From Clostridiales bacterium (GTDB lineage Bacteria > Bacillota > Clostridia > Lachnospirales > Lachnospiraceae): a stretch of 45,803 bases of DNA. The first letter of the stretch is position 1. Each line of letters opens with the position of its first letter. Positions 850 through 17,495 of this stretch are shown piece by piece. Position numbers and translations under genes: made by a program. The DNA is taken from contig JAJBUA010000076.1 in the NCBI GenBank assembly GCA_020860565.1, positions 1 through 45,803 on the forward strand, given 5' to 3'. The notes below the pieces were generated by a model. The model did no database searches. It was not told the DNA's origin and saw nothing but the letters and a program-made list of their open reading frames with translations.

Positions 850-3800
850 CTACCATCCTATATCCCCCGCAATCAAAAACGTCCCATCAGACTGAACGCC
901 CAATGTGCAGCTGTCGCCCGCCGAAATGTAGACGACATCCGTCCAGTCCTCCACCTCACATTGACCGGCGTCGTTGCTCCCCACCGCATAGACGGTTCCG
1001 TCAGAGCGAAGCCCTGCTGTGTGATACAGTCCCATTGCCAGCTGAGTCAGATCAGTCCAGTCGTAAGTATTGTATTGTCCATAATTATATTCCGCGGAAT
1101 CTTCCAGAAAGACCGCTGTTCCATCTGCGCGAATCGCACCGATCGCGTAACCTCCGGCGTAAAGCCCGGTGATATCCGACCAGCCTGCTGCCGTCTCTGA
1201 CTGATTTCCGTCAAAATCAATACTGACAACCGTCCCATCACTTCGGAGTCCCAGGATTTCGCTGTTGTAATAATCATCACGACCACTGCGGCACGCCACC
1301 TGCACGATATCCGTCCAGTCCTCCACGGCATAAAGAGCTTCCGGCAATTCGAGTACACCCGCCTGATACAGATGTACCTGACCATCTGCATCCACACCAG
1401 CTACATAAATTGCCGCATCATTCGCCATAGTATTATCCGGCGAACTGACCTGAATCAGCGGTTCCTCGTTCACAAGACTCAAACCCGCATAATCTTCTTC
1501 CTCTGGAATCTGCATGTACAAATAACCGTCCGCATCCAGATAATAGCTGCCTTCGTACAGATCTATTTCTGAATAGAAATATTCCAGTTCACCCACCTCT
1601 CCCAAATCAGAAACATTTTGTGCCAGAACTATAAAATCACTAAAGAAGGATCCACTCGTCCAGCAAAGAACCGTTCCGTCTTTGGTTAGCCCAAGCACGC
1701 TGCCAGTCTGAGACTGCAGACCGTTATATATCCGCACCTGTGCCAGATCGCTCATGTCCTCCACAGAAACATTGCCCTGATTAACGGAAGTCTCCACAAT
1801 CTCTCCATCCTTCCGGATTCCAATCGCATGACTGTTGGAAAGGCCATTAATCAGCACTCCGCTCATCCCACTCCAACCGGATATGGTCTCATGAAAAGAT
1901 TCTCGAAAACTGAGTGGGAAACCAGCTGTGTACACTTCTCCGTTTTCAGATACCGCATAACAGCTACTATAAGATACTGTCATTTGTACAATATCCTGAA
2001 AATTTTCCAACCCCGGCATAGTAAGATCAGAATAACCATACACATTCTTATCTGTCCACAGGTTCGCGCGGATCGCAGTTCCATCTTCTTTCACACCGAT
2101 TACAATATACTGATTGAGTGCCAGAAATTGTACATCATCCCAACCAGCAATTTCCGCAGAAGTTCCTTCCAGTCCTGTGCTAAGCACCTGTCCATCCTCT
2201 GTCAGGCCGCACAGAACATAACCAGCCGCAGCAATTGTGCGGATGCCGCTCCATTCCAGACATTCCTGTGCTTGTCTTCTGGTATCGTTGGTAACGATTG
2301 TTCCCTCCGTTGTCAGGCCATAGACATAGCTCCCCGTCGCTGCGATTTCAACGATATCAGTCCAACGTTCTACATCATCAACACCGTCTAACTGTCCTGC
2401 GATCACCACGGTTCCATTCTCCCGAAGTCCCGCCGAAAACGTGTCACCTGCCGCAACTGCAGCGATCCTGGTCCATTCCGAAAGATTTCTCTGACCGTAC
2501 GCGTTACTCCCCATGGAGGTCACGGTTCCATCCTCCAGCAGGATTAAAGCGTGTGTATTAGACGCCGCATAACTGGTCTGCGGTACAGCAGTCACGATGA
2601 CTTCTCCAAAATCTTCTTCCTCCTGCTGCAAGTCAATGGTTTGTGTCTCGCCTGACGAATCCTCTGCAGCAGAAATATCCTCTTGCATCAATGTCTCTGT
2701 TGCCTGCTCCATCTCCGCTGTCTGCATGGTCGACGTGCTCTCCTGACCTGCCTGCCTTCTTCCGAATGTAAAAAATAATCCCACCGCCAGCAGACCGCAG
2801 ACTGCCACACCACCAATGGCCACGACTGTCTTTCCCCTCTTTTTAACACCATTTTTCCGGACGGTCTTCCCCTCATAGAGCGCACCCGTAAGCTCCGCAA
2901 TGCTCTGGATCCGGTCTTCCTTCTTTACCGCAAGGCCTTTCAGATCCGCAGTTGCTGTCCCCTTGCTGACTTTTACCGGAAATGCGTCAAACCCTTTCAG
3001 GCTGTCCTGAAACATCCGGTCCATTGCGGACACCGGCGTCTCTCCGGTCAGCATCCGGTAAAGCACTGCGCTGATCGCGTAAACGTCCGTCCACGATCCC
3101 TGTTCGCCGTGAGTGCGGTATTGCTCTTCCGGGGCATAACCATGTTTCAGGATTATGGTCAACGACTTCTGATCATTCTTTGCCGTCATACGCGCCGCGC
3201 CGAAGTCGATGAGTTTGACGGACTCGATCCTGCGGCCGATTCGCTTTCCAGTCTCTGCTGCTCCGGCAGCACCGGAGGACAGATCGCTTTCCGCTTCCTC
3301 TTTGAAGGTCAGCATGATATTATCCGGGCTGATGTCCCGATGGATGATCCCAGCCGTATGTATCTTGCTCAGCGCGTCCAGAACTGGTCTTAAGATAGCA
3401 AGCGCCTCCGCCTCCGGCAAACTTCCGCCGCGCTCAGCGAGATAATCCTTCAGACTCTCTCCCTCGATATATTCCATGACGATGTAGGCCGTCTCATTTT
3501 CATAAAAGAAATCCTTTACCGACACTACGCCAGAGATGTCAGAGAAACGGGAGACGTTCCGCGCCTCCGTCACATACTTCTCCAGTCCCTGCTGATAGGT
3601 GCGGCTCTTCTCTCCGCTTAAGGAGAGTACTCGGTCGCCAGTCATCGACGTCGTGTCGCGGCTGACCAGCTCCACCGGGAAATATTCCTTGATCGCCACG
3701 CGGGTCTCCATATTTAAGTCAAAGCCCATGTAGGTGATGCCGAAGCCGCCCTGTCCCAGCACGCGCCCCACCAGGTATTTCCCGGCGAGGATTGTATTCG

Positions 3801-3927
3801 GCGGCAGGCAGCGCGGATTCGATTGATACGCGGACAGATCAAAGCCGCAATACGGACACGCGCCACCCGCTGTTTTCTTTTCTCTCATACATCCCAGACA
3901 AAGTTTGTTAATATCAATCATGCTCAT
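850..3927 (-). CDS. Membrane Ser/Thr protein kinase with zinc ribbon and RCC1-like propeller
   Basis: Predicted transmembrane Hanks-type kinase of about 1025 residues. An N-terminal zinc ribbon (CLGC then CPYC, residues 10-30) precedes the kinase domain. The kinase has a glycine loop GQGGFG, VAIK lysine, catalytic HRDISPDN, DFG in LIDFGAA, and the HGYAPEEQY activation segment typical of bacterial members. A basic stretch and one membrane span (near residues 370-395) follow, then an acidic linker and about ten RCC1-like blades with repeated DGTV and WTDI/WSDI units, probably extracellular. The start at 3927 was chosen because GGAAGG sits 6 bases upstream. An ATG at 3933 is the alternative. It has its own promoter carrying the island motif at 3982-4023. 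Substrate and sensed ligand are unknown. Confidence 0.88.
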   Translation of the reverse strand: MSMIDINKLCLGCMREKKTAGGACPYCGFDLSAYQSNPRCLPPNTILAGKYLVGRVLGQGGFGITYMGFDLNMETRVAIKEYFPVELVSRDTTSMTGDRVLSLSGEKSRTYQQGLEKYVTEARNVSRFSDISGVVSVKDFFYENETAYIVMEYIEGESLKDYLAERGGSLPEAEALAILRPVLDALSKIHTAGIIHRDISPDNIMLTFKEEAESDLSSGAAGAAETGKRIGRRIESVKLIDFGAARMTAKNDQKSLTIILKHGYAPEEQYRTHGEQGSWTDVYAISAVLYRMLTGETPVSAMDRMFQDSLKGFDAFPVKVSKGTATADLKGLAVKKEDRIQSIAELTGALYEGKTVRKNGVKKRGKTVVAIGGVAVCGLLAVGLFFTFGRRQAGQESTSTMQTAEMEQATETLMQEDISAAEDSSGETQTIDLQQEEEDFGEVIVTAVPQTSYAASNTHALILLEDGTVTSMGSNAYGQRNLSEWTRIAAVAAGDTFSAGLRENGTVVIAGQLDGVDDVERWTDIVEIAATGSYVYGLTTEGTIVTNDTRRQAQECLEWSGIRTIAAAGYVLCGLTEDGQVLSTGLEGTSAEIAGWDDVQFLALNQYIVIGVKEDGTAIRANLWTDKNVYGYSDLTMPGLENFQDIVQMTVSYSSCYAVSENGEVYTAGFPLSFRESFHETISGWSGMSGVLINGLSNSHAIGIRKDGEIVETSVNQGNVSVEDMSDLAQVRIYNGLQSQTGSVLGLTKDGTVLCWTSGSFFSDFIVLAQNVSDLGEVGELEYFYSEIDLYEGSYYLDADGYLYMQIPEEEDYAGLSLVNEEPLIQVSSPDNTMANDAAIYVAGVDADGQVHLYQAGVLELPEALYAVEDWTDIVQVACRSGRDDYYNSEILGLRSDGTVVSIDFDGNQSETAAGWSDITGLYAGGYAIGAIRADGTAVFLEDSAEYNYGQYNTYDWTDLTQLAMGLYHTAGLRSDGTVYAVGSNDAGQCEVEDWTDVVYISAGDSCTLGVQSDGTFLIAGDIGW

Positions 3928-3981
3928 TCCCATCCTTCCACCAATTCGAATTTCACAAGTACCTTCTCCTTGCTGACCAGT

Positions 3982-4023
3982 TTATTAAATTATTTTTTCG
4001 CCTGCAACAAGGTGAACTTTAAC
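3982..4023 (-). promoter_or_regulatory. Island promoter 1: GTTAAAGTTNACC element before the kinase gene
   Basis: On the minus strand GTTAAAGTTCACC (4023-4011) is followed directly by TTGTTG (4010-4005, -35 position), 17 bases, and TAATAA (3987-3982, -10 position). The predicted leader is about 50 bases. The same 42-base layout occurs at 9967-10008 and 14511-14552. The element contains an imperfect dyad, GTTAA-AG-TTNAC, which suggests a protein binding site abutting -35. Confidence 0.65.
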
Positions 4024-4030
4024 GATTCCA

Positions 4031-4063
4031 TAAAAAAACCGATCACCTTTTACGGCAATCGGT
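4031..4063 (-). terminator. Rho-independent terminator after the DUF4160 gene pair
   Basis: On the minus strand a 10-bp stem (ACCGATTGCC with GGTGATCGGT, including two G-U pairs), a 6-base loop, then a run of T. It ends the DUF4160 transcript just before kinase promoter 1. Confidence 0.75.
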
Positions 4064-4140
4064 CTATCATTCCATGATACCCTTATCAGAAAATCAAAGC
4101 AGCAGATATAAAATGTCCTATCCGTATATAAACGTTAAGG

Positions 4141-4419
4141 TCAACAGTAGAAATGAATCGTATCTTCTACGAAAAACTCCTTCCATGCTACACATATATA
4201 AAAGAATTGAGCAGAGATAAACTCCATTAATTCGTTCAACTCCGATAAAGGAATTTGACTTCTGTTATTTGCAAGAATACAACCACCATTTCTGGTAAGC
4301 CATATTTTAGTGCTATTTGGTGTAGGATGCCCCTTTGAAATATGGACATGTATCGGTTCTGTATTCTCATTTGACCAAAAATATATTTTATAACCGCTGA
4401 CTGTAAATAAATTAGGCAA
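4141..4419 (-). CDS. DUF4160 family protein (TTG start, coupled)
   Basis: A 92-residue protein matching the DUF4160 pattern: an N-terminal PNLFTVSGYKIYFWSNE stretch, then EPIHVHISKG, and a C-terminal AWKEFF helix. I place the start at TTG (4419), since GGGGAG lies 6 bases upstream and family members usually begin M-P-x-[LI]-F. This start overlaps the end of the upstream gene by 8 bases, which implies translational coupling. In-frame ATGs at 4434 and 4464 would add residues foreign to the family. DUF4160 genes are often found beside a small partner and have been suggested to belong to toxin-antitoxin-like pairs. Its biochemical role is unknown. Confidence 0.75.
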   Translation of the reverse strand: MPNLFTVSGYKIYFWSNENTEPIHVHISKGHPTPNSTKIWLTRNGGCILANNRSQIPLSELNELMEFISAQFFYICVAWKEFFVEDTIHFYC

Positions 4420-4681
4420 TATGAACTCCCCCATTAGCAGCATATTTATAAAAAAGATGTGCATTGCTTTCCATCAATTTCTGAAACATGGCAATTTCGT
4501 TATCGGAATATCCATTTCTCATAATCCAGGTATAAGACGGAAGTTCACATCTAGCCGAATCAAAACCATTAGCTGTAGGACGTTCAAAATGGACCAGAAC
4601 TTTTCTTATATCTCCCTCCTGTATAATGTGGGAGTGAACAATCTCCGTTCCATCTCCCAACGTCATATATGGATACATCAT
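4412..4681 (-). CDS. Small partner of the DUF4160 protein
   Basis: An 89-residue soluble protein starting MMYPYMTLGDGTEIVHS. The start at 4681 is set by GGAGG 8 bases upstream; the open frame reaches further back but has no better site. The body contains charged beta-rich sequence (VLVHFERPTANGFDSARCEL) and a C-terminal helix ending YAANGGVHIA. I recall similar short proteins next to DUF4160 genes in Firmicutes, but I cannot name a domain. Its stop overlaps the TTG start of the DUF4160 gene, so the two should be made together. The pair ends at the terminator 4031-4063. Confidence 0.65.
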   Translation of the reverse strand: MMYPYMTLGDGTEIVHSHIIQEGDIRKVLVHFERPTANGFDSARCELPSYTWIMRNGYSDNEIAMFQKLMESNAHLFYKYAANGGVHIA

Positions 4682-4808
4682 AATTCTCGCCTCCATCTGC
4701 ATAAGATTGATTTCATTATAACAGTTGATTTTCCTGAATTCAATCCTGCATTTTCCTTTCCAGCAATAAAACATTTTACGCTACCGGAGCGTGAACCCCC
4801 TTGCGTAT

Positions 4809-5126
4809 TTACTGCACGGCAGGAAGTGTATCATTATACTTCGTATTCGACTGTCGTTTTTCCGAGCGCTTATAATCGAGCTGCGCAGCTTCAATACTTT
4901 CCCATGGCTTTTCTAAATTCCATGCGAAAATAATCGCGCGTGCATTGCCGTAAAGGTTGTTATCCGCGTCGATTGCTCCTCCCATGCCAAGATTCCCATC
5001 CTCTTCCGGGTTGATTCCTGCGGAAATATATCCAGATTCGGAAGCAACTACTTTCACATTGGTCCATGTGGCGAAGGTCTGCTCGCATACAGCGGCCTCT
5101 GATGAATCAGCGGCGACATATACAAA
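4809..5126 (-). pseudogene. In-frame orphan tail downstream of the GLUG lipoprotein
   Basis: About 105 protein-like residues in exactly the same frame as the lipoprotein gene ending at 5136, separated from it by TAA, TGA and TAG within four codons. It reads FVYVAADSSEAAVCEQTF, later WTNVKVVASESGYISAGI and AIIFAWNLEKPWESIEAAQ, ending at 4809. There is no ATG with a ribosome binding site; a GTG at 5057 exists but lacks one. It may be the lost C-terminal domain of the lipoprotein, or a remnant of another gene. The phrase WTNVKVVA weakly resembles the RCC1 blades of the neighbouring kinase, but I would not assign it. Confidence 0.4.
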
Positions 5127-5135
5127 CTATCATGA

Positions 5136-7259
5136 TTAAGGCCGCAAATTTCTTTCATATCCGGTATCGTCAATTGTCAGCACCCAGTCTGCGTTATCGA
5201 GCCATTCGCATGGATACTCCTGTGTCTCCAGAAGCTCCGGTCCATCTGCCGTCAGCGTGTAAATATCCACATAGCTCTCCGCATCTTCCCGTCCGCCCAT
5301 CTCTATGACCAGTTCCAGAACGCCGTCCTCATTGATATCTGCCATAGTATAAACGTTGTAATCCGAATTGTTTTCCCCGAAATACTGAACGTCTACGATT
5401 TCATGATAAGCGGCATAATCCGGTCCCCATCCTTCTGCCGCTTCGGAACCTGGCGTTGTTTCCGCCGGGGATTCTGCTTCTTCTCCATCGTTCTCCGTCA
5501 GATCTTCTTCGGGATCTGTCATCGTAGCGGTCATTCCTTCCGTCCAGGTAAAACACGGCCCATCCGCATTGGTTGTCCACTCGCTGTATCCTTCTCCCAG
5601 AGACTTCACGCCTTCATTCAGTGCGGCTGCCACAGTTCCATCCGTAAAGGCCGCTGCCTCCGTAGCGGTGAAGGAATCTTCTTGTGGCTGCCCCTTCGAT
5701 TTCACAATGCTGTACTCAGCAGTATCTTCTGAAAAAAAGCAGTTTTCAATGGTCGCTGACCCGATTCCATACTTCAGACTTGCGGTCATATGAGCCGTTG
5801 AACTGCAATTGGTGATCGTACCGTCTGTTTTGCTGAGCTGGGCAATGGCGTAGGCGCTGTCAGCCATTTTAGGAAGCGTATAAATCGTTCCGCTTGTATA
5901 ACAATTGGTAACTTTCGCTTTTACCGGGCTGCTGGTAGTGCCGAGAGTCGCCCTTCCCACGATACCTCCGGCATGTCCGGTGAAACCGTCTGCTGTATGA
6001 GTATGGATATCATAGCCTGATTTTATCATCACATCAACATCCAATCCCACTGCCTCATATTGCTCCATAACCTTTTGGTAATCCGTCGCTACCGTTCCGA
6101 TCTGATAGCAGTTCTGCACATCCAGGCTGTTTCCGTATCCTTCTGCCAGGATTCCTCCCGCCAGAGCGCATCCGTAGACCATACCCGTATTGCCGCACTG
6201 ATCGATCGTAATGTTACTTGCACTGCCGACAATCCCTCCTGCGCCTTCTCCGGAAACCACGATGCCGGTATTGGTACAGTTTTCTACGGGAATGCCTGAC
6301 TGTTTTCCTTCCAGTTCCGCTACGATACCGCCGCTGATGCGATAGCCGAGCACAGCTCCATGATTCTCACAGTTTCTGACCGTAGTATACGCAACCTTGG
6401 CAATCCCCGCACAGCTGCCTTTCGACATCTTTCCTCTGCTCATGGTACTCTCTGTCGCGTCACTGGTCATAACAATTCCGTAGTTGACGCAGTTCTCTAC
6501 CTCTTTCACACTGAACGCGATTCCACCCGCTTCTCCCATGGTTCCTTTTCCCCATGAGCCGTGCGCGTCTGCCCCAAGGACGGTACCGGAAAAGCTGCAG
6601 TCTACAATCCGGTTTCCATAAGCCGCGATTCCACCCGCCTGCGCAGCTCCGACATTTCCTTCTACATGGCAATTCTCAATCAGTCCATCCGAATTGCTGG
6701 TAATGGCACCGCCCTCATTCGAAACATAGATCATGACATCATCCAGCGTAAGATTCCGAATCACGCTTTCCTCTCCGCATGCACGAAATAATCCCGCATG
6801 ACCATTGGGATCGGTCTCTGCGTCAATCACGATATAAAGGCCGCTGATCGTATGTCCGTCGCCGTCAAAGACTCCATCATAGCCATAAATCGGATCCCAG
6901 TTTCCTGTACCTTCACCGCATACTCCCGAGAGGTCAATATCCGCCGTCAGAACCGCGTTCAGAGTATCCTCGCCATCATTCACCCGGTCGCGGAATTTCT
7001 CGAGGTCGGCCGCCGAACTGATCTTCACCGCACCATCGAACAGGCTGTCAAGAAGTCCCCCGTCCTTCGCATCCTCACCCTCTGCTTCGGCATCTTCCTC
7101 ATCAGATAAATCCCCGGATGTCTCTTCCTCCTCGTTTTCCGACTGCAAAGAATTCTCTTCTTCCAGTCCGGGTATCTGGCCAATCTTATGTGATCCTGAG
7201 CATCCCGCCAGTGATGTCACCAAAATCGCTGCCATGATGATTGTGGCAATCCTTCTCAT
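5136..7259 (-). CDS. GLUG-type beta-helix surface lipoprotein
   Basis: A 707-residue predicted lipoprotein. The signal peptide ends in the lipobox LAGC (Cys20). An acidic, disordered linker follows to about residue 70. A long repetitive region has recurring G-G-I-A/V and NC-x-N-x-G units (for example GGIVGSASN, NCTNTG), typical of GLUG or parallel beta-helix repeats. After a second acidic linker, a C-terminal domain carries DINEDGVLELV, a calcium-loop-like motif seen in cell-surface proteins. GGAGG lies upstream of the ATG. It follows the 853-residue lipoprotein gene by 113 bases with no promoter motif of its own, so the two are probably co-transcribed. Likely anchored outside the membrane, with ligand unknown. 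Confidence 0.8.
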   Translation of the reverse strand: MRRIATIIMAAILVTSLAGCSGSHKIGQIPGLEEENSLQSENEEEETSGDLSDEEDAEAEGEDAKDGGLLDSLFDGAVKISSAADLEKFRDRVNDGEDTLNAVLTADIDLSGVCGEGTGNWDPIYGYDGVFDGDGHTISGLYIVIDAETDPNGHAGLFRACGEESVIRNLTLDDVMIYVSNEGGAITSNSDGLIENCHVEGNVGAAQAGGIAAYGNRIVDCSFSGTVLGADAHGSWGKGTMGEAGGIAFSVKEVENCVNYGIVMTSDATESTMSRGKMSKGSCAGIAKVAYTTVRNCENHGAVLGYRISGGIVAELEGKQSGIPVENCTNTGIVVSGEGAGGIVGSASNITIDQCGNTGMVYGCALAGGILAEGYGNSLDVQNCYQIGTVATDYQKVMEQYEAVGLDVDVMIKSGYDIHTHTADGFTGHAGGIVGRATLGTTSSPVKAKVTNCYTSGTIYTLPKMADSAYAIAQLSKTDGTITNCSSTAHMTASLKYGIGSATIENCFFSEDTAEYSIVKSKGQPQEDSFTATEAAAFTDGTVAAALNEGVKSLGEGYSEWTTNADGPCFTWTEGMTATMTDPEEDLTENDGEEAESPAETTPGSEAAEGWGPDYAAYHEIVDVQYFGENNSDYNVYTMADINEDGVLELVIEMGGREDAESYVDIYTLTADGPELLETQEYPCEWLDNADWVLTIDDTGYERNLRP

Positions 7260-7372
7260 TTTCTCATTCCTCCGTCATTCATTTTTCTTTTTATTCTTTT
7301 CTTTCTGCTCTTCTTTCTGTTGAGTCATATCCGCGCAGGCGAACATGTCCGTTTGATAACGATTCACCAACG

Positions 7373-9934
7373 CTAGTCCGGATTGATCATCGTCGGCTCC
7401 GCCGCCTTTACCTCACTGTTTACCGTAGTAATCACCAGCACCGGATCCATATCATTGATCTCCCGGTAAGCTTCGACATAGTCGTTGATCTCCTGCTCCG
7501 TATGCATCTCCCGATTCAGCACACTTTCCGGAAGTACATTTCCGTAAGCTCCCGTGATCCTCATCAGGGTATCCGCGACGCCTCCCTCCGGCATATTCGC
7601 CGTATAAAAGGAACCAAAGGTTACGCCGTCTCTCAGGATAAACGCATTCTCCTCTGACACCTGAAATTCCCCCGTCACAGAGAAATACGCCGTATACGCG
7701 GTTCCTCCCTGATAATCGGATACATCCACCGCAAAGGAATTCTCCCCCAGATCAATCTCACGTCCGAGGATCATAACCTTCCCGTCATCTGCTGTCCTGG
7801 CGCCATCCAGATAAATCAGCCGGTCGGTCGTGCGCTCCCCTACGTGAAGCCCGTTGACCTGATATTTCCTGCCGCTCACGATCTCCATTGCCTGCAGGAC
7901 CACCGGATATTTCTTATAATTCAGTTCCGCCGTCATCGTCCGCACAGCCGCCGAATCGGTATCCATGCTGTCCTTTCCCGCCATATCAAAGGACACGTCA
8001 AACCTGCCTTCCTCATCCGTCATACATTCCACGAGAAGCGTACTGTCCTCATCCTTTATTTCCATCTTTACCCCGGGCACCGGCTGCTCATCCTCCCAAC
8101 TGAGGACCTGTCCGGTCAGCTCGGTAAGGGTGAAGATCACTTCCTGCCAGGCTTCTGCGCCATTGATTGTAAGATTCGCCAGTTGCGAAGGCATCAAACC
8201 AAATCTCTTCCCGGTATCCGAAAAGTCCGCCATAAAATACTCCAGCTTTGTATTTAACTCCTTCTGTCTGGCAAGCTGCGACGCAGTAAGACCGTATTCC
8301 GCCGCAATGCATCCGTAATACCGTGACACATAGCAGGCTTTAACCGCGTTACAGAGGATATAACGAAAAGTCTGTTCATCCTCCATGGTCCATGTCTTTG
8401 GTACGCTAACCAGAGTTTCCTTATAAATCTGCTCGAAAGCAGCCATGGCATCCGTCTCATACAGGATTCCCTGTACCGCTGTCAGAAAGGCCTCCTCGTC
8501 GTCCAGCGCTCCCGATGTAAATGTACTCCATAGTCCGGAAGCCATTGTCACAAATCCGAAAAAGCTGTCTCCCAGAAAAGCAAGTCCATTTGCCGTCACG
8601 TTAACCAGATTTTCCTGCCACCACTGTTTCTGTTTATCTCTGAAACCGGAGATTCCGCTGCTGCCGTATGCTTCCACCCGATCAGCAAAAGACTGATATA
8701 AACTGGCCGGAAGCGCAAGCTGTTCCAGATCTTTCTTTCTCTCCAGAAACTCCTCACACGCAGACTTCATCCATTCATCCCCGCTGTCAAATCGTGTTGC
8801 CAGAGAACCATAAGAAATCATCCACCCCACGACAGTCAGGAGATTGCTCACCTGACCCATACCCTTCGCCTGATCAGAAGCATTCTCTGCCGCCATCTGA
8901 ATACTCGCGTATTCACTCGCATCCTCCAACGTTATCAATGCCATGCTGTTTGGACCTGGATTATGTGTACTCAGCTCATGTTCCATGATCTCCACTGCTG
9001 ACTCCAGATCCGCCTGTTCGCCGTAAACGACCGCACCCATGATATTCCACGCATCATCATAACTTCGAGAAGATATATCCCAGAGAATCTGAGCCAGCTG
9101 ATCGTCCATTTCCAGCATCGAATCTGCGAATTTATTCAGATATTTTGCGTCAAGGATCTCATCAATACCAGAAAATGTGTATGCAACGGCATAAGTGTCC
9201 AGAGAAAACAGATTGCGCAGATACGTGGAAAGAGTCGCTCCCAGATCCATATAAGCCAGGTTTTTCCCCGAATATCCGAGATCACTGTACTTAAAATCAT
9301 AAGTCGCGCGATCCTGATAAAATTCTGCCAGCCGATCCAGTACCGTCTCCCGATTGCGATAAAGCAGTAAAGGAAATGTCCCTGCCGTTGTTATCACAAT
9401 AGAAAAATCACCCTTTAAATCAGCCATTGTCACAAAAGCATCCAGCGGCACATACCAGTCCTCCTCATACAGCATCGGACTGCTCCCCATATCGATCATC
9501 TCATCGAAAAACGCATTGCTATAGGTGGCTGTATTGCTGCCGATCGTCATATAAATGGATGTCTTATTAAGAACTGCTTTGGCATTGCTACGATCAAAAT
9601 AAACCGGAAAATCCAGAAAATCGCCCAGAGAATCCAGCTTCCCATATACGACATGGTTTTCATCCACGATCACCGGAAGGTAAGCATTCCTCTTCGCAAC
9701 TATGGATACACCGCTTTTATCCATGGTCTTATCGGCAATCGTCTCAACACCCAGATAACCGGTCGCCGGGAAAGTGGTCGGCTCCGGCATCTCTTCGAGT
9801 TTTTTCAGCGAATAAGGATTCGCCTCCTGCGAGCTGTTTACTCCCGGCACCTCCTTATCGGAGCATGCAGTCACATTTCCTGCCATAACAATAGCCAGAA
9901 TGAATGCCGCGGCGCGGCGTAGCTGTCTTTTCAT
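7373..9934 (-). CDS. Large lipoprotein of the kinase/STAND island
   Basis: An 853-residue predicted lipoprotein. The signal peptide ends at VTAC (Cys24). Residues about 60-190 resemble the copper amine oxidase N-terminal or stalk fold (YLPVIVDENH, then WYVPLDAF), although without a confident match. The middle is mostly helical with no recognised domain. Near residues 650-720 there is a carboxypeptidase-regulatory-like beta-sandwich pattern (PVPGVKMEI, then TDEEGRFDV), followed by a beta-rich end. The start at 9934 has AAGGGG upstream; the frame also reaches 9973 without a ribosome site. Its promoter (9967-10008) carries the island motif. I do not recognise a specific family. Confidence 0.75.
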   Translation of the reverse strand: MKRQLRRAAAFILAIVMAGNVTACSDKEVPGVNSSQEANPYSLKKLEEMPEPTTFPATGYLGVETIADKTMDKSGVSIVAKRNAYLPVIVDENHVVYGKLDSLGDFLDFPVYFDRSNAKAVLNKTSIYMTIGSNTATYSNAFFDEMIDMGSSPMLYEEDWYVPLDAFVTMADLKGDFSIVITTAGTFPLLLYRNRETVLDRLAEFYQDRATYDFKYSDLGYSGKNLAYMDLGATLSTYLRNLFSLDTYAVAYTFSGIDEILDAKYLNKFADSMLEMDDQLAQILWDISSRSYDDAWNIMGAVVYGEQADLESAVEIMEHELSTHNPGPNSMALITLEDASEYASIQMAAENASDQAKGMGQVSNLLTVVGWMISYGSLATRFDSGDEWMKSACEEFLERKKDLEQLALPASLYQSFADRVEAYGSSGISGFRDKQKQWWQENLVNVTANGLAFLGDSFFGFVTMASGLWSTFTSGALDDEEAFLTAVQGILYETDAMAAFEQIYKETLVSVPKTWTMEDEQTFRYILCNAVKACYVSRYYGCIAAEYGLTASQLARQKELNTKLEYFMADFSDTGKRFGLMPSQLANLTINGAEAWQEVIFTLTELTGQVLSWEDEQPVPGVKMEIKDEDSTLLVECMTDEEGRFDVSFDMAGKDSMDTDSAAVRTMTAELNYKKYPVVLQAMEIVSGRKYQVNGLHVGERTTDRLIYLDGARTADDGKVMILGREIDLGENSFAVDVSDYQGGTAYTAYFSVTGEFQVSEENAFILRDGVTFGSFYTANMPEGGVADTLMRITGAYGNVLPESVLNREMHTEQEINDYVEAYREINDMDPVLVITTVNSEVKAAEPTMINPD

Positions 9935-9966
9935 AATCAGCCCCTTTGTCAGTTTTGCTGGTGATC

Positions 9967-10008
9967 TTATCATGATTTTTCCTTTGAGACAACAAGGTCA
10001 ACTTTAAC
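9967..10008 (-). promoter_or_regulatory. Island promoter 2: GTTAAAGTTNACC element before the lipoprotein pair
   Basis: On the minus strand GTTAAAGTTGACC (10008-9996), TTGTTG at the -35 position (9995-9990), 17 bases, and TGATAA at the -10 position (9972-9967). The predicted leader is about 26 bases. The element begins 12 bases after the stop codon of the STAND ATPase gene. Confidence 0.65.
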
Positions 10009-10020
10009 AGTTTACGGTAT

Positions 10021-12141
10021 CTACTCTAACCGATCCCCCGCCTCCGCCAGTTTCGCCCCTACTCGTTCGATCCAGTCCCGGCGGGCCTGAAAATGCCGGT
10101 TTAAATCTTCAAACACGATCCGGTATTCCTGCGCCGCCTCCTGCGTACGACCGGCAGCCATATAGAGATCGCCCATCTGTTCCCGGCACATCAGAGTATC
10201 TTTAAAATACCTTCCCCGGTAATGCAGCGCACGCTCCAGAGATTCGATCGCCAGCTGCTCCGCCTGCGTGAAATCACCCTTAGCCTGATAAATCATGATC
10301 AGCACCTGATCGTATTCATTGAGGCGGTATTCCGCTCCCTCTATTTTCCGCATGGCAGCTTTCGCATCTGTACAAAGAGCCAGCGCCTCATCTGTTATTC
10401 CCTGCAAAAACAAAAGTTCCGCTTTTCGCAGGCGATGCGACTGCCAGACGGTCTCGATATCGGTATCATGGCTGTGTAAAATTCCCTTTTCCCTGCAAAA
10501 TTTCCGGTATTCATCAAAGTACGCCGTTCCCTTTTCATTGTAAAAAGCTGCCTTTTCCAAAAGTCCCTCGGACTGATACCGGCGGGCCAGCTTCATATTT
10601 ACCTCCGACATAAGACGCTTATATCTTGTATCCAGCGGCTCACACTGACTCAGACTGCGAAATGCTTTTTCGTACCATATGTTTGCCTGCCGGATATCCA
10701 TCCAGTTATAGTAAACTGCCGCCATTCTCAGATACATTTCCCCCGTGAGCTGATGGTATTCGCCAAAATCCCGTTCTACACATTCCACGATTTTCTTCTG
10801 CCATTCTTCAGCCTCTTCATAATATTCCTGAATCCACAGCCAGGTAGACAGACGCTCCAGTTCGATGGCAAACCACGATAACGGGCGCGGAAAGGCTTTC
10901 ATAATCGCAAAGACATACGGCTCCATTTTCTGATTCTCTGCGTAGGTGTCCTCCCACATATTCCACTGGGCATTGCAAAAAGCCGCCACCATACCGCGGC
11001 AGTTCGTCAGTGTCGGTGTAAAAAGCTGTCTCACCGCCTCAGCAACCAGCGGATGCAAAGACAATACACACTCCTCGTCCTGTTTCTGTCGATTGAGCAG
11101 CAGACAGGATTCCAGCCGATCCAGTGTCTTTGCGGATACCTTCGAGATCTTCAGATACAACGACTGCGGGATTCCCTTAACCGGCATAACAGAGAGTTCT
11201 CTCAGTGCCTGTTTTTCCTCCTGTCTGAGCGAAAAACGTGAAAAAAGATCCATCAGGTTTTCCAGAGACGGTTTCCCCTCTGAGAAAATCGCCTCTGTCA
11301 TATCTTCAGTTTTTCCTTCCCGCCACTCATTGTCCGCAATCCGGATCTTCATCAGCAGTACCTGGCCGCCTACCTGTCTGCAGTATTGATCCAGACACTC
11401 TCTTTCCTCCTCACTGACAGATCCTTTTGCGTAAGCGGACAGAAACTGATCCCACTCCTGCCGTGTTTCAAACCCGGATATCGGAATGCCTCCCTCAAAT
11501 CCCCATACCGACGGATGCATGCGGGTCGTCACGATGATATCACAGGGAATGGCAAAGACCTCGTCCCTTCCTGCGTCCTTCTCCCGATTCCAGTCATCGA
11601 TCACCAGCAGGAGCTTTTCCTCTCCGGCGATCCCGGTCAGGACCCGTATTTTCTCCCGGAAATAGTTGATCCGGCTCCCGTATTCATCGCGGGAATACTG
11701 CAGATTGCTGATCGATACCTGAACGTCGTCACAGATGGCTGACCGGATTCCCGCATCCCCATAGATGAAAAGCACATGGTCGTAATCCTTCCCCTTCCGC
11801 CGCACGTATTCCCTGGCAATGGAACTTTTTCCCATGCCGCCCATCCCGTAGAGGATGACCGGTGCCTGCCGGTCCATCAGTTCTTTCTCGATCCGGCTTA
11901 GGATCGCCTCCCTGCCTACAAAGATTTCCTCCGGCATCCGGTTATTCTGTGTGAGCAGACGCATCACGCAGGATTCCCGGTATCGCCCACGCGCTTCTTC
12001 CAGGTGAATCCTCTCACCGGCTTCCTGTTCTTCACTTTGAAATCCGGCCGGCGTATCCCGATACCGGGCGCGAAGCTCAAACTGCCGTTCTTTCCATTCC
12101 AACAGATCCTTCTCGTAATTTTCTCTCCCACTCATACCCAT
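10021..12141 (-). CDS. STAND/NB-ARC ATPase with TPR-like C-terminus
   Basis: A 706-residue signal-transducing ATPase. An N-terminal charged helical segment is followed by FVGRE, Walker A GMGGMGKSS (about residues 100-108), Walker B LLLVIDDW (about 178-185) and the sensor-type IIVTTR. This is the NB-ARC arrangement known from AP-ATPases and bacterial STAND proteins. A winged-helix-like region comes next, and the C-terminal half is a helical array of TPR-like repeats with many paired aromatic and alanine positions, the usual ligand-sensing module. It has no obvious enzymatic effector domain. It lies 14 bases after the adaptor gene in the MATE-led operon. The ATG at 12141 is preferred over GTG 12147. 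It may act in defence, stress or envelope signalling; I infer none firmly. Confidence 0.85.
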   Translation of the reverse strand: MGMSGRENYEKDLLEWKERQFELRARYRDTPAGFQSEEQEAGERIHLEEARGRYRESCVMRLLTQNNRMPEEIFVGREAILSRIEKELMDRQAPVILYGMGGMGKSSIAREYVRRKGKDYDHVLFIYGDAGIRSAICDDVQVSISNLQYSRDEYGSRINYFREKIRVLTGIAGEEKLLLVIDDWNREKDAGRDEVFAIPCDIIVTTRMHPSVWGFEGGIPISGFETRQEWDQFLSAYAKGSVSEEERECLDQYCRQVGGQVLLMKIRIADNEWREGKTEDMTEAIFSEGKPSLENLMDLFSRFSLRQEEKQALRELSVMPVKGIPQSLYLKISKVSAKTLDRLESCLLLNRQKQDEECVLSLHPLVAEAVRQLFTPTLTNCRGMVAAFCNAQWNMWEDTYAENQKMEPYVFAIMKAFPRPLSWFAIELERLSTWLWIQEYYEEAEEWQKKIVECVERDFGEYHQLTGEMYLRMAAVYYNWMDIRQANIWYEKAFRSLSQCEPLDTRYKRLMSEVNMKLARRYQSEGLLEKAAFYNEKGTAYFDEYRKFCREKGILHSHDTDIETVWQSHRLRKAELLFLQGITDEALALCTDAKAAMRKIEGAEYRLNEYDQVLIMIYQAKGDFTQAEQLAIESLERALHYRGRYFKDTLMCREQMGDLYMAAGRTQEAAQEYRIVFEDLNRHFQARRDWIERVGAKLAEAGDRLE

Positions 12142-12155
12142 GTTCACCCGTCATA

Positions 12156-13094
12156 TTAACCCTTCAGAGCTTTAAAATACAGAAACCGCAGATCTTCTTT
12201 TTCTCCCAGACAGACATCCAGACATTGATAAGCCTCCTGAAGCCAAACGGAGCATTCCGCGGGATCCATCCCCCTGCAGGATTCCTCGTAAAGCTTCAGA
12301 AATCCCAGAATCAGCCGGTCCAGATGACTGCCTCTTGCCGTGGTATGTTTCTCTGTTAACGGCAGATATCCGAATCCTTCCAGATATTCACTGACCAGAC
12401 GACGGTTAAGAAAAGGCTGCGCAAATATGATAATATGCCGGATCATGCTTCTTCTCGGAATCTCTCCCAGCAACAGCATCTGACGGCTGAATTCCGAATC
12501 ATAATTAATGCTGTCAAAATGTTTTTCCGATCCCTTATGATTCTTCTGTCCGAGATAAGCTCTCGCATCCATATAATAAAAATGCCGCAGATAATGCTTC
12601 ATGTCCTGGCGCCGCACACCCATCCGCATCCGGCGGATCGGATGAATCTTATCCAGATATTCCGCTGCCAGTTCATCCAGTCTGCTGCGTCTTTGTTCGT
12701 AGATCCTGCCTTCGGGCGTCTCCGGCTCCGGCTCCGTCCCAAAGGTCCGATCACAACGGTCACAATAGGAAATCAGTAACTCTCTCTGCTCTTCCTCTGA
12801 CAGATCCATCGCGCGTCCAAACGCCACACACTGACTCCGGTTGACCGGCATGTGTCTGCCGGTCCGCCAGTAGCGTATCTTTAATGTATCCGAGGACTTT
12901 TGCGGCAGCGACGCATACATTTTTGCGTAGATCAGTTCATCCGCCTCGGTTTTCTTGAAGATCCCTTCTGTTTTCCGAAACCGCTCATAACGTTTCTTCA
13001 GCCAGACCATCTCCGGCCGCTCCTCTTCTCCCAGGCGGATACAGGTCCTGGCCAGTTCTTCCAATTCTGCTTTTACCTGCTCCGTTACGATCAT
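12156..13094 (-). CDS. Conserved-looking helical protein, possible HTH adaptor for the STAND ATPase
   Basis: A 312-residue soluble, basic, helical protein. Residues about 30-110 (LKKRYERFRKTEGIF, TLKIRYWRTGRHMPVN, then FGRAMDLSEEEQRELL) resemble a helix-turn-helix or XRE-like module with a C-terminal acidic helix. A CDRCDRTF stretch follows, and the rest is helical without known motifs. GAGGTGAG precedes the ATG. The gene sits between a MATE transporter (44-base gap) and the STAND ATPase (14-base gap), which suggests one operon. It could be the DNA-binding regulator of the shared island motif or a signalling adaptor for the ATPase. Both are inference; I do not recognise the family. Confidence 0.6.
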   Translation of the reverse strand: MIVTEQVKAELEELARTCIRLGEEERPEMVWLKKRYERFRKTEGIFKKTEADELIYAKMYASLPQKSSDTLKIRYWRTGRHMPVNRSQCVAFGRAMDLSEEEQRELLISYCDRCDRTFGTEPEPETPEGRIYEQRRSRLDELAAEYLDKIHPIRRMRMGVRRQDMKHYLRHFYYMDARAYLGQKNHKGSEKHFDSINYDSEFSRQMLLLGEIPRRSMIRHIIIFAQPFLNRRLVSEYLEGFGYLPLTEKHTTARGSHLDRLILGFLKLYEESCRGMDPAECSVWLQEAYQCLDVCLGEKEDLRFLYFKALKG

Positions 13095-13138
13095 TCCATC
13101 TCACCTCGAACTTTTCTCACTCTGTCATGCGGCTCAAC

Positions 13139-14467
13139 TCATTCTGCGATTTCATTTCTCAGACATCTACGGTAAATCAGGACTCCGGTCACAGCGGGGA
13201 TTCCCCATTTGAATGCCGCGCACCAGCAAACCGCTGTATATCCGTATTGCGGCATCAACCCCCACGCAAAGATCAGACAGACGGCTGCCTCCAGTCCTCC
13301 CAGCAGCGGCAGCGCCCGGTAGACTCCCATTGACTGAAGAGAATTTCTCATGATGATATAGCAGCTCACCAGCGGCAGCGCGCAGATCTGGATCCGCAGG
13401 ATCCGGCTTCCGGCCTGCAGACTGGTCTCAGAAAGCTCCGCTCCCGACAGGGACCGGATGATCACCGGAGCAAACATCAGTACACTCACGATATAAATGA
13501 CACAGAGAATGGCACTCGCGGCCAGCAGCTTCTGATTCCAGCGGTCTGCTTCTCTGATCCGATCCCTTCCCCTGTTCTGTCCGGTGATCAGTCCCGCCGT
13601 CACGGCGAATGCACCCAGGGATGACATCAGAAAATTGACCGGCACCTGACCATAGGAATAACCGGTCAGAATATCCTCCGGCAGCGTATTGATCCTCCGC
13701 TGGAACAAAAAGGCTCCCAGGCCAATGATCATCATCATGAAGGATTTGGAACATCCGTTTTGCAAAAGCTCCGACCAGACGGAGCGCGCCGGCAGGCAGG
13801 GTGACATCAGGAGTTTTCTCCCGACAGGCTGCCGCAAAACCCATAAAAACAGCAGCGCTGCCACCCAGAGATGATTCGTCAGCACAGCCAGCGCCGACGC
13901 CTCCACCCCCAAGCCGCCCTGAACGATCAGCAAAACCATCACACAGGTCTGCACAACGACGCTCATCATCGATAAAAAAGCCGGCACACGGCTCTCACCC
14001 AGAGCCTCTGCTACCTGTACCAGCAGATTTTCCAGCGCCCAGAACCCGCCGCCAAAGAGGATCACCCTCATGTAAGGCCTTGCATCTTCACGCATATAAT
14101 CAGGAATATTAGCCAGCGTCATGATCATGTCCGCCAGCCCGGACAGAAAAATGCCCAGAATGATCATGCAGAGGCAAAGCCACAGGGATCCCCACAATGA
14201 CTCCCTCTGCCGTTTGATATCTCCCGATCCGATACATCGGTTGATAAAGAATCCAAATCCCGTAGTCATACTTACATAGAGATAACTCTCCATGCTCAGG
14301 CACGAACCACAGGCTACTATCACTGCCAGCGCCCCGGGCGTCAGGAAACGCCCGCTGACTGCCGCATTCACCATCGAATACCCATTGCTGAACACCGTTG
14401 AAACAAACAACGGCAATATAAACTGACCTACTTCTCTGTCAGACAATTTACCTGTAAAGTTATTCAT
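13139..14467 (-). CDS. MATE family multidrug/organic cation antiporter
   Basis: A 442-residue integral membrane protein with about twelve hydrophobic spans in two homologous halves, as in MATE exporters (DinF/NorM/MepA type). Family signatures include the N-terminal PLFVSTVFSNGYSMVNAAV stretch, LGESRVP between halves, and VPVNFLMSSLGAFAVTAGLI in the second half. Such proteins export drugs or metabolites using Na+ or H+ gradients. The start at 14467 has GAGGGTG upstream; a TTG at 14482 is less likely. It is the first gene of the MATE-adaptor-STAND operon and has island promoter 3. What it exports is unknown; linkage to an NB-ARC ATPase is unusual. Confidence 0.88.
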   Translation of the reverse strand: MNNFTGKLSDREVGQFILPLFVSTVFSNGYSMVNAAVSGRFLTPGALAVIVACGSCLSMESYLYVSMTTGFGFFINRCIGSGDIKRQRESLWGSLWLCLCMIILGIFLSGLADMIMTLANIPDYMREDARPYMRVILFGGGFWALENLLVQVAEALGESRVPAFLSMMSVVVQTCVMVLLIVQGGLGVEASALAVLTNHLWVAALLFLWVLRQPVGRKLLMSPCLPARSVWSELLQNGCSKSFMMMIIGLGAFLFQRRINTLPEDILTGYSYGQVPVNFLMSSLGAFAVTAGLITGQNRGRDRIREADRWNQKLLAASAILCVIYIVSVLMFAPVIIRSLSGAELSETSLQAGSRILRIQICALPLVSCYIIMRNSLQSMGVYRALPLLGGLEAAVCLIFAWGLMPQYGYTAVCWCAAFKWGIPAVTGVLIYRRCLRNEIAE

Positions 14468-14510
14468 CTCACTCACCCTCAAGTGTAAAAAACACTTTTT
14501 CAGGTGAAAA

Positions 14511-14552
14511 ATAACACAAATTCAACAATCGTGCAATCAGGTAAACTTTAAC
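14511..14552 (-). promoter_or_regulatory. Island promoter 3: GTTAAAGTTNACC element before the MATE operon
   Basis: On the minus strand GTTAAAGTTTACC (14552-14540), TGATTG at the -35 position, 17 bases, and TGTTAT at the -10 position (14516-14511). Overall length and register match the other two copies. It begins 12 bases after the mgtE stop codon, the same offset as copy 2 has from the STAND gene. Confidence 0.6.
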
Positions 14553-14564
14553 AATTTAAATGTT

Positions 14565-15992
14565 TCACCCCGCCAGATGCAGCACCTGCAGCAACAGCAC
14601 CCAGCACAGTCCATAATACACAACAACCGCAACCAGATCATTGACCGTGGTGATCAGCGGCCCGGAGGCTGCCGCCGGGTCGACGTGGATCTGTTTGAAG
14701 AAGAGCGGAATCACCGTCCCCACCGTACTGGACACCAGCATCGCGGTCACCATGGCGATCCCGATACAGCCGGAAATCGCATATGCATACGCAAACGACT
14801 GTCCCTTGGCGATAACCAGGAAAAGTCCCACGACCAGAAAGGACGCGATCCCAAGGATCAGACCGTTGCAAAAACCCACTCTGGATTCCTTCAATACCAG
14901 TCCTATCTTCTGGCGCGCAGTCAAAGTCTCATCCATCAGCACGCGGATCGTAACCGCCAGCGACTGTGTCCCGACATTGCCGGACATACCCAGGATCAGA
15001 GACTGAAACGCCATGATCAATGTCAGCTGGGCAACCACCTTCTCAAAGGAACTCACTACTCCGGACACAAAAAGCCCCAGAAACAGCAGGGTGATCAACC
15101 ATGGCAGCCGCTTCTTCATGCTCTCCGGAAGCGTCTCCGAAAGCTCCTCTTCTGCGGTCAGACCTGCGAAACGGGCATAATCCTCCCCCATTTCCTCATC
15201 CACGACTTCAATCAGGCTCTGAGAGGTGATAACTCCCAGCACGTGATTCTTATTATCCAGAACCGGGATCGAATCTTCCGAATAATCCTTCAGCTTCTCA
15301 ATACATTCATCAATACTTTCATGGGCATAGACATAGGGGAACGAGGTCGCAATCACCGACTCCAGAGAATCCCCCTGACGGGCGATAATCAGCTCACGCA
15401 GATCAATCGTCCCGTAGAAGACGCCTGCTTCATCCACAACAAAGATCGTAGAGACATTTTCATTCTCCCTGGCCTGTTTCAGAAGCTCCCGCATGGCTCC
15501 CTTGATCGAAAGATCCCGCCGGATCAGAATATAGTCCGTGGACATCCGGCTGCCGATCTCATCCTCATCAAAGGAAGCGATCAATTCGATATCCCGCTTG
15601 GCCTCCTCGTCCATCAGGCTGAGCAGAAGCCTGCGCCTTTCCCCGGGAATCAGGCTGAGGATGGATGCCACACGATCCGAATCCATCTCGGAGACAATCG
15701 CAATCTCTTTTTGCAGATCCATCTCCTTCAGACAACGGATCGCGTCATCTTCCTCCATATATTCGAAAATGCCAGACAATGTCTCCAGATCCAGCAGATT
15801 AAAAAGCTTCGTCTGCTCCTGTGCGGTCAGTCTGGGAATCGCCTGCGCAATATCGTTATTATGATAATCCTCCAGTTTTTCCTGAAGAATCCTGGGGGAA
15901 CGGTTACTGCGTACAACTGCAATAATTTCCTCCACATAATCCGGTTTTTCCACCCGGTCTTTTTCTGTCAAAATCTCATCCGGCTTTCCCAT
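14565..15992 (-). CDS. mgtE: Magnesium transporter MgtE (copy 1)
   Basis: A 475-residue Mg2+ channel/transporter. The cytosolic N domain of helical repeats contains DAIRCLKEMD and DEDEIGSRMSTDYI. A CBS pair follows (VSTIFVVDEAG, EDSIPVLDNKNHVLGVIT), then five membrane spans with MSGNVGTQSLAVTIR and the C-terminal DPAAASGPLITTVNDLVAV pore motif. The start at 15992 is chosen because the leader GGTGAGAAT-ATG is identical to that of the neighbouring copy, and this gives the same 475-residue length. The frame also opens at 16019. It lies 75 bases after the second copy and is probably co-transcribed. No M-box riboswitch is visible upstream of the pair. Confidence 0.95.
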   Translation of the reverse strand: MGKPDEILTEKDRVEKPDYVEEIIAVVRSNRSPRILQEKLEDYHNNDIAQAIPRLTAQEQTKLFNLLDLETLSGIFEYMEEDDAIRCLKEMDLQKEIAIVSEMDSDRVASILSLIPGERRRLLLSLMDEEAKRDIELIASFDEDEIGSRMSTDYILIRRDLSIKGAMRELLKQARENENVSTIFVVDEAGVFYGTIDLRELIIARQGDSLESVIATSFPYVYAHESIDECIEKLKDYSEDSIPVLDNKNHVLGVITSQSLIEVVDEEMGEDYARFAGLTAEEELSETLPESMKKRLPWLITLLFLGLFVSGVVSSFEKVVAQLTLIMAFQSLILGMSGNVGTQSLAVTIRVLMDETLTARQKIGLVLKESRVGFCNGLILGIASFLVVGLFLVIAKGQSFAYAYAISGCIGIAMVTAMLVSSTVGTVIPLFFKQIHVDPAAASGPLITTVNDLVAVVVYYGLCWVLLLQVLHLAG

Positions 15993-16067
15993 ATTCTCAC
16001 CTGTATTCCCTGTTTTCATATAGCAGACTATCTTCTGTCATTAAACTGATAACTGATCAGACAGCAT

Positions 16068-17495
16068 CTACCCCGCCAGATGCAGCACCTGCAGCAGCAA
16101 AAACCAGCTCAGGCTGTAATAAACCACCACAGCAACCAGATCATTGACTGTCGTGATCAACGGACCGGAAGCTGCCGCAGGATCCACATGGACCTGTTTA
16201 AATGCCAGCGGGATCACGGTTCCGACCACACTCGAAACCAGCATCGCGATCACCATCGAAAGGCCGATGCAGCCGGAAACGGCATACGCAAAAGAAGCCG
16301 GCAATCTCTTCACGATCATCAGAAACAAACCGACAAACAGAAACGACGCGGAACCCAGAACCAGTCCATTGCAAAAGCCAACCCGCGATTCCTTGATGAC
16401 CAGACCGATCTTCTGACGTGCGGTCAGTGTCTCATCCATCAATACACGGATCGTGACCGCCAGCGACTGCGTCCCGACATTGCCTGACATATCCAGGATC
16501 AGCGACTGGAAGGCCATGATTAACGTCAGCTGCGCGACCACCTTTTCGAATGCACTGACCACCGCCGATACCATCAGACCAAGAAACAGCAGGATAATCA
16601 GCCACGGGAGTCGCTTCTTCATGCTCTCAAACAGCGTCTCCGACAGATCCTCCTCTGCAGTCAGACCGGCGAACAGGGCGTAATCCTCTCCCATCTCTTC
16701 ATCCACGACTTCAATCAGGTTCTGGGAAGTAATGACGCCCAGCACGCGGTTATCGCTGTCAAGCACAGGGATCGAGTCCTCCGAGTAATCCTTTAACTCT
16801 TCGATACAATCATCAATACTCTCGTGTGCGTACACATAGGGGAAAGAGGTTGCCGCCAGATCTTCAAGGATCGTGTCCTGACGTGCGATAATCAGCTCAC
16901 GCAGATCGACTGCACCATAAAAAACCTCGGCGTCATCTACTACATAAATTGTGGAAACGTTATTATTATCCTCCGCCTGGCTGATCAGTTCCCGCATCGC
17001 AGCCTTTACGGACAAACTGCGGTTAATCACAATATAATCGGTAGTCATCTTACTGCCGATTTCATCATCATCAAAAGACGCCAGCAGCTGTACATCCTGT
17101 TTGGATTCCTCATCCATCAGATTCAGTACTCTCGCACGGCGGTCTTCCGGCATCGCCTCCAGCAGATCCGCCGCGTAATCAGAATCCATCTCAGAGACAA
17201 CTGACGCTGCTTTCAGAAGATCCATTTCCTTCAGGCAGCTGATCGTCTCGTCTTCATCCATATACTCCAGGATATCCGACAGCGTTGGGATATCCAGTAA
17301 ATGGAAAAGCTTCTTACGTTCCTGCACGGTGAGCTCAGGAATCGCGTCCGCAATATCGTTCTCATGGTAATCTTCCAGCTGGTCGCGGAGAACCTTTGGG
17401 CTCTGACCACTTCGGATGATCGCTATAATCTCCTGCTCATAATCCGGTTTATCGACCCGCTCTTTCGCTGTGATCGTTTCATTCATCTGCAACAT
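16068..17495 (-). CDS. mgtE: Magnesium transporter MgtE (copy 2, tandem paralog)
   Basis: A 475-residue paralog of the next gene, with the same architecture: MgtE N domain, CBS pair and five membrane spans. The two proteins are nearly identical from the CBS region through the end, and differ most in the N-terminal helical domain and in a few CBS residues. This copy has ILDMSGNVG where the other has ILGMSGNVG, an acidic change next to a conserved motif. It is first in the transcript and has its own promoter (17597-17625). The duplicated, diverged N domain suggests different Mg2+ gating thresholds, which is inference. Confidence 0.95.
   Translation of the reverse strand: MLQMNETITAKERVDKPDYEQEIIAIIRSGQSPKVLRDQLEDYHENDIADAIPELTVQERKKLFHLLDIPTLSDILEYMDEDETISCLKEMDLLKAASVVSEMDSDYAADLLEAMPEDRRARVLNLMDEESKQDVQLLASFDDDEIGSKMTTDYIVINRSLSVKAAMRELISQAEDNNNVSTIYVVDDAEVFYGAVDLRELIIARQDTILEDLAATSFPYVYAHESIDDCIEELKDYSEDSIPVLDSDNRVLGVITSQNLIEVVDEEMGEDYALFAGLTAEEDLSETLFESMKKRLPWLIILLFLGLMVSAVVSAFEKVVAQLTLIMAFQSLILDMSGNVGTQSLAVTIRVLMDETLTARQKIGLVIKESRVGFCNGLVLGSASFLFVGLFLMIVKRLPASFAYAVSGCIGLSMVIAMLVSSVVGTVIPLAFKQVHVDPAAASGPLITTVNDLVAVVVYYSLSWFLLLQVLHLAG

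Follow-up and report, generated by a model that had tools for sequence, protein, structure and literature searches.

A conserved promoter module and its proposed Cro/C1-fold regulator in a STAND/kinase island of gut Lachnospiraceae

The window, i.e., the whole stretch of DNA analyzed, is 45,803 nucleotides long and spans positions 1 to 45,803 of contig JAJBUA010000076.1 from a Clostridiales bacterium (Lachnospiraceae; assembly GCA_020860565.1, here the home assembly). It carries a minus-strand island in which three groups of genes are each preceded by a copy of the 13-base element GTTAAAGTTNACC. The copies lie on the minus strand at 4023-4011, 10008-9996, and 14552-14540, and are the same in sequence save for N. 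We propose that the element belongs to an operator read by the 312-residue product of one of the island's genes, here called the adaptor. The three full elements are as follows, with scores from the second of two matrices described below.

14508..14552, minus strand: element 3, heading the MATE-adaptor-STAND genes; operator GTTAAAGTTTAC; predicted -35 TTGCAC 14536-14531, -10 TATTTT 14513-14508, and transcription start 14501; 41.4 bits
9964..10008, minus strand: element 2, heading the lipoprotein-like genes; operator GTTAAAGTTGAC; predicted -35 TTGTCT 9992-9987, -10 TAAGAT 9969-9964, and start 9957; 37.5 bits
3979..4023, minus strand: element 1, heading the RCC1 kinase; operator GTTAAAGTTCAC; predicted -35 TTGCAG 4007-4002, -10 TAAACT 3984-3979, and start 3972; 31.8 bits
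4036..4065, minus strand: terminator-like hairpin with T run, adjoining element 1 upstream (consensus scan)

The genes behind them are these.

13139..14482, minus strand: MATE transporter, the first gene behind element 3; the ATG at 14467 is the likelier start by eye
12156..13094, minus strand: adaptor, 312 residues, the proposed regulator
10021..12147, minus strand: STAND protein, 708 residues, with NB-ARC and TPR, 8 bp after the adaptor gene
7373..9973, minus strand: lipoprotein-like protein of 866 residues, lipobox by eye
5136..7259, minus strand: GLUG-motif lipoprotein-like protein, 113 bp after the 866-residue protein gene
850..3933, minus strand: Ser/Thr kinase with RCC1 repeats (domain models)

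The first-pass annotation had placed the three copies ahead of the kinase, the lipoprotein pair, and the MATE-adaptor-STAND genes, and all of its coordinates are borne out. The predicted start at 9957 makes 9934 a likelier start codon than 9973 for the 866-residue protein. Because the terminator-like hairpin lies just upstream of element 1, that element probably opens a new transcript.

Three copies are not expected by chance. Hand arithmetic, with 12 fixed bases and equal base use, predicts about 0.34 exact matches per assembly. The home assembly (2,825,184 bases in 125 contigs) has three, all in the window, and none to the reversed pattern. The window has no further match at up to two mismatches, for which shuffled sequence gives a mean of 1.65. 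Three copies in 10.5 kb, on one strand and in one register, against 0.34 expected, thus argue against coincidence, as had been judged at first reading. The whole-genome scan that the first-pass annotation proposed finds the exact 13-mer confined to the three sites. Its remark that there is no full match elsewhere holds for that 13-mer; the full promoter pattern adds two one-mismatch sites in the genome, described below.

GTTAAAGTTNACC is no isolated repeat but forms the core of a promoter module that is conserved. The module consists of an 18-bp pseudo-palindrome, AwTGTnAAnnTTnACmTk, and a weak sigma-A-like promoter at a rigid distance from it. In the logo built on 68 sites of related loci, aaAtGTTAAAnTTnACmTtrTTG(a/c)(c/a)n is followed by a poorly conserved stretch and then by TGnTAnnnT. 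The columns outside the module are nearly uninformative, mostly 0.0-0.15 bits. Read as a housekeeping-type promoter, the -35 hexamer TTGnnn occupies element positions 17-22, the spacer is 17, and the -10 hexamer TAnnnT occupies positions 40-45; a TG ahead of the -10 (TGn) is found in 40 of 69 sites. The dyad GTnAA-nn-TTnAC, which extends to the full pseudo-palindrome, is centered near -45 and ends one base before the -35 hexamer. With a mean of 8.0 of 12 consensus bases, the core promoters are weak. The constant register and 17-base spacer of the first-pass annotation hold, although its hexamers had been placed 3 bases too early.

The register also appears when sites are picked by GTTAAANTTNAC alone. 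That string has 44 exact occurrences in 39 loci (reversed, 3), with TTG in register at 33, TAnnnT at 30, and both at 26; among shifts from -6 to +6, no shift other than the register gives the two together. At 59 of 68 testable sites an open reading frame (ORF) begins no more than 150 nt from the predicted transcription start, compared with 21% of random positions. A weak promoter whose -35 keeps a constant distance to the operator is a class II-like arrangement, and we infer from the rigid spacing and the weak core promoters that an activator is favored. The dyad abutting the -35 had been taken for an activator or repressor site, and its sequence, a pseudo-palindrome at fixed distance, is indeed operator-like.

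The adaptor is the candidate reader of this operator. It matches no Pfam model (E≤1) and no NCBIfam model (E≤0.1), and a sequence search of solved structures with the adaptor returned two rows only, at E 0.5-0.6. Its AlphaFold2 model, with a mean predicted local distance difference test score of 92.8, has a five-helix Cro/C1 fold at residues 25-114, resembling P22 c2, C.AhdI, SinR, PlcR, and ComR. Since no profile matches, we term the adaptor Cro/C1-like in fold and do not place it in a named family. Two parts of the gene are relevant here.

12753..13022, minus strand: predicted Cro/C1-type helix-turn-helix (HTH) fold, adaptor residues 25-114
12861..12896, minus strand: putative recognition helix, third of the predicted HTH fold, adaptor residues 67-78, SSDTLKIRYWRT

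K72 and R74-G79 are invariant in 32 of 32 aligned adaptors, giving a motif K-x-RYWRTG in the putative recognition helix. In one clade, one change in the helix tracks one change in the operator.

The element and the adaptor occur together in other genomes. Samples of 299 genomes from the family and 373 from the order were searched. In the family sample the adaptor profile gives seven strong matches (E<1e-100, home included) and two lesser ones, G204 (3e-44) and G225 (2e-4); a single-sequence search finds the adaptor in 8 of the 299. Three of the 373 order genomes have a match: the home genome and G155, both of the home family and both strong, and G590, of another family, at E 5.6e-5. A scan of named genome contigs with the adaptor as query gave 39 related loci, labeled mostly Lachnospiraceae, Lachnoclostridium, Blautia, Faecalicatena, Merdimonas, and Clostridiales, with one Erysipelotrichaceae. 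A first matrix, built from eight sites (five home, three from relatives), finds 69 sites of at least 15 bits in these loci, against 2 in the reversed control, and at least one site in 34 of the 39. A fixed 18-base pattern has 19 exact, 26 one-off, and 14 two-off matches there and none reversed. In the whole genomes behind the loci, 36 of 39 have matches at up to two mismatches (96 matches; reversed, 5) and 31 of 39 at up to one.

In the family sample, exact matches to the pattern occur only in G000 (3) and G090 (2). At up to one mismatch, 5 of 7 strong-adaptor genomes match, as do 10 of the 292 others, G204 and G225 being counted among the 292; at up to two, 66 of 299 match and about 77 of 299 match the reversed pattern (hand count), which is the chance level. 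When compared with the 10 of 292 by Fisher tests, 5 of 7 gives p = 3e-6 and 31 of 39 gives p = 1e-27, values that are overstated because the genomes share ancestry, the sets partly overlap, and the pattern and loci were not independently chosen. Better evidence comes from a second matrix, made from the 69 sites with the home sites excluded, although those 69 were picked by the first, home-seeded matrix. It scores the five home sites at 41.4, 37.5, 31.8, 33.7, and 26.2 bits, with 2 reversed-control sites above 12 bits. The scan of relatives proposed at first reading finds the element with the adaptor and near ORF starts. The exact 13-mer was abandoned as a family marker: it matches 59 of 299 genomes, mostly singly, and by eye its reversed control is no lower. 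With its variable positions the 13-mer marks the family poorly; the full module should be used in its place. Twenty-nine stretches with distal sites were mapped. In at least one of them (L208) no gene is suitably oriented, and some distal matches may therefore be chance. Separately, L227 and L236 each carry a further adaptor paralogue after a distal exact site; that of L227 follows a MATE gene.

The neighbor of the adaptor varies. Among the 39 loci it is a STAND protein in 18, a sigma-factor-like protein in 15, both in none, and neither in 6, some of these loci being incomplete. The element is present in 18 of 18 STAND loci and in 12 of 15 sigma-like loci. It follows that the factor shared by the two kinds is the adaptor, in a set of loci that had been selected by it. 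Element-headed units elsewhere include genes for Hsp70 (L110), a tubulin-like protein (L211), vWA proteins and kinases (L210, L228), GLUG and BspA-repeat surface proteins (L222, L223), and MATE and lipoprotein-like products (by similarity or by eye); the listed genes are not always the first of their unit.

A relaxed operator-plus-promoter pattern locates two further sites in the home genome, each with one mismatch. The site on contig C91 (33.7 bits) is 26 bases from the contig end, ahead of ten genes in the order PP2C, Zn-ribbon-FHA, vWA-FHA, kinase-FHA, PP2C, FHA, FHA, kinase-RCC1, FHA, kinase-RCC1; six of the ten readings were checked with Pfam and the others made by eye. The last gene has 55% identity to the window's kinase over query residues 1-739. 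The site on contig C120 (26.2 bits) precedes a small membrane-protein frame. The regulon suggested by the first-pass annotation is thus supported and extends past the island. Only these two sites are claimed, since at up to three mismatches the final relaxed pattern has 20 matches and its reversed control 30 (57 and 37 in a prior pattern scan). Candidates were dropped on C66, C23, and C24 (inside genes), on C26 and C82 (inside opposite-strand genes), and on C118 (promoter missing in register). Those on C48 (contig edge) and on C56 and C98 (2 mismatches) are not counted into the regulon. On C120 (L081, 1516-2333), the membrane-protein frame seems broken near 1690, and a class-B-sortase-like gene, read by eye, lies on the opposite strand.

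From these data we propose a simple arrangement, as follows. The adaptor probably binds the 18-bp pseudo-palindrome near -45 and, so bound, would recruit RNA polymerase to the weak sigma-A-like promoter from a position beside sigma region 4. λ cI at PRM is an activator that works beside sigma region 4. Because an element lies ahead of the adaptor's own operon, the adaptor would feed back on the MATE-adaptor-STAND genes. The home regulon would comprise that operon, the lipoprotein pair, the RCC1 kinase, the PP2C/FHA/vWA/kinase operon of C91, and the small membrane-protein gene of C120. The likely signal-sensing partner is the co-encoded STAND ATPase, whose place a sigma-factor-like protein takes in other genomes. 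The element, its register, its co-occurrence with the adaptor, the predicted HTH fold, and the covariation are the computed part of this proposal; binding, activation, partner control, and the signal we infer. Taken as a whole we consider it likely. Control by the 312-residue protein had been offered as a guess at first reading, and the fold prediction, the co-occurrence, the own-operon element, and the helix/operator covariation now back it.

Several findings weigh against this proposal. Five of the 39 adaptor loci have no site, G204 has none at up to two mismatches, and the site of G124 (L125) is weak, at 19.7 bits. Conversely, G231 has a site and the adaptor was not found there. The C-terminal half of the adaptor, about 195 residues, has no clear fold match. 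Relatives of the kinase elsewhere have no element within the stretch seen, in 0 of 30 loci (one per genome, from 30 of 37 genomes with a match, the home C91 copy included), nor in five longer stretches from G063, G124, G223, and G231. The locus test is weak, as the flank was 1.5 kb and the home C91 kinase itself lies about 11 kb behind its element. The kinase was dropped as a conserved regulon member and may have joined the regulon in this lineage only.

The same operator and protein could also serve repression, whether the adaptor is simply a repressor or is a dual regulator with its own operon as the repressed target. Repressors are common among Cro/C1-fold proteins. A perfect second dyad, GTTAATTTTAAC, covers the -10 of the adaptor promoter in L110 (3967-3978) and L114 (9936-9947), a possible autorepression site, and in L128, L131, L132, L134, L135, and L137 an inverted exact operator, with no promoter in its own register, sits shortly after the predicted start of a sigma-like gene; both locations are repressor-like. 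The main operator, however, keeps one rigid distance on the upstream side of the -35, and this position, together with the weak core promoters, fits polymerase contact better, so that we hold repression to be possible but doubtful. It is improbable that another regulator co-inherited with the adaptor, e.g., the STAND protein, reads the element. Co-occurrence cannot separate co-inherited genes, and the G231 site would be explained. But no STAND protein turned up in the 15 sigma-type loci and no sigma-like protein in the 18 STAND-type loci, and the element is in both kinds; for the large sigma-like protein the home genome offers no close relative, its best match being a 189-residue frame at E 1.3e-6; and the covariation points to the adaptor.

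A sigma-like ORF does lie behind the site in 12 loci (L124, L125, L128, L130, L131, L132, L134-L137, L140, and L141; the sites of L131 and L132 score 14.3), with Pfam domains Sigma70_r2 and r4 checked in L124, L134, L135, and L141 and the others assigned by similarity. The element might then be the promoter of an alternative sigma factor of the extracytoplasmic function type. We dropped this reading, which now seems very improbable, after the logo gave TTGnnn-N17 with TGn-TAnnnT, the housekeeping layout, and the home genome proved to have the element without such a sigma-like protein. As for a chance repeat, or the remnant of a mobile repeat copied three times, sites are few per genome, as it would predict; the uninformative columns outside the module and the matches in 36 of 39 adaptor genomes leave it almost no credence. 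Direct repeats of the LytTR type were also dropped, as no second half-site was seen by eye at the expected spacing.

Comparison with known systems places the proposal. With Cro/C1-type (XRE) HTH regulators such as those named above, the adaptor shares the predicted five-helix fold and a pseudo-palindromic operator beside a promoter; it differs in its lack of a Pfam or NCBIfam match, in the C-terminal half without clear structural match, and in its own operator sequence. A TPR-like peptide-binding domain, which RRNPP receptors (Rgg, PlcR, ComR, PrgX) carry at the C-terminus, gave no row in the comparison of that half. As proposed for the adaptor, λ cI at PRM uses an operator around -42 to -45 relative to a weak promoter of the sigma-70 type, ahead of the regulator's own unit; in contrast, the adaptor's neighbor is a STAND ATPase or sigma-like protein, and activation by the adaptor is a proposal. 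In MalT/AfsR-type STAND (SWACOS) regulators, an NB-ARC and TPR module is tied to transcription, as it may be here. There, NB-ARC, TPR, and DNA binding reside in one chain, whereas the island's STAND protein matches NB-ARC and TPR models and no HTH model, the predicted HTH lies in the separate adaptor, and the STAND neighbor is replaceable by a sigma-like protein. Section 29 of Kaur et al. (2020; PMC7159879), on GAP1-N2-type conflict systems, lists tubulin-like, vWA, Hsp70, kinase, and PP2C proteins. Tubulin-like, vWA, Hsp70, and kinase genes recur in the element-headed units elsewhere, and kinase, PP2C, and vWA genes at home, and in this the units recall those systems; that section names no such regulator or element.

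More tentatively, an NLR-like STAND ATPase, swappable with a sigma-like protein, could control a separate Cro/C1-fold activator of a conflict-type regulon through a dedicated operator in gut Lachnospiraceae. The genes meant are kinases, PP2C/FHA/vWA proteins, surface and lipoproteins, and the MATE exporter. If such a two-protein switch exists, bacterial NLR-like sensing would be wired to a transcriptional response and not to a direct effector; if the STAND partner gates the adaptor, the pair would correspond to a MalT-type regulator divided between two chains, and an NLR-like protein would here serve transcription. In any case, the proposal assigns to an adaptor family without a Pfam or NCBIfam model both a target sequence and a function that can be tested, and through its regulon the part played by a gut-bacterial STAND/kinase island becomes testable as well. 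Among the titles listed by literature searches, including one with GTTAAAGTT, none concerned this regulator or element.

With PADLOC (E≤0.01) the adaptor and the STAND protein have no match, and the window's kinase matches kinase models. Positions 1-60 of the minus strand, at the low contig end, resemble by eye the 5′ end of a group II intron, and Rfam gives nothing in the window at gathering score. A small DUF4160 gene and a small neighbor gene, possibly toxin-antitoxin-like, lie at 4141-4774 between the kinase and lipoprotein genes. Lastly, two tandem, closely similar MgtE-like genes (by eye) at 14565-17495, the product of a local duplication, end immediately ahead of element 3.

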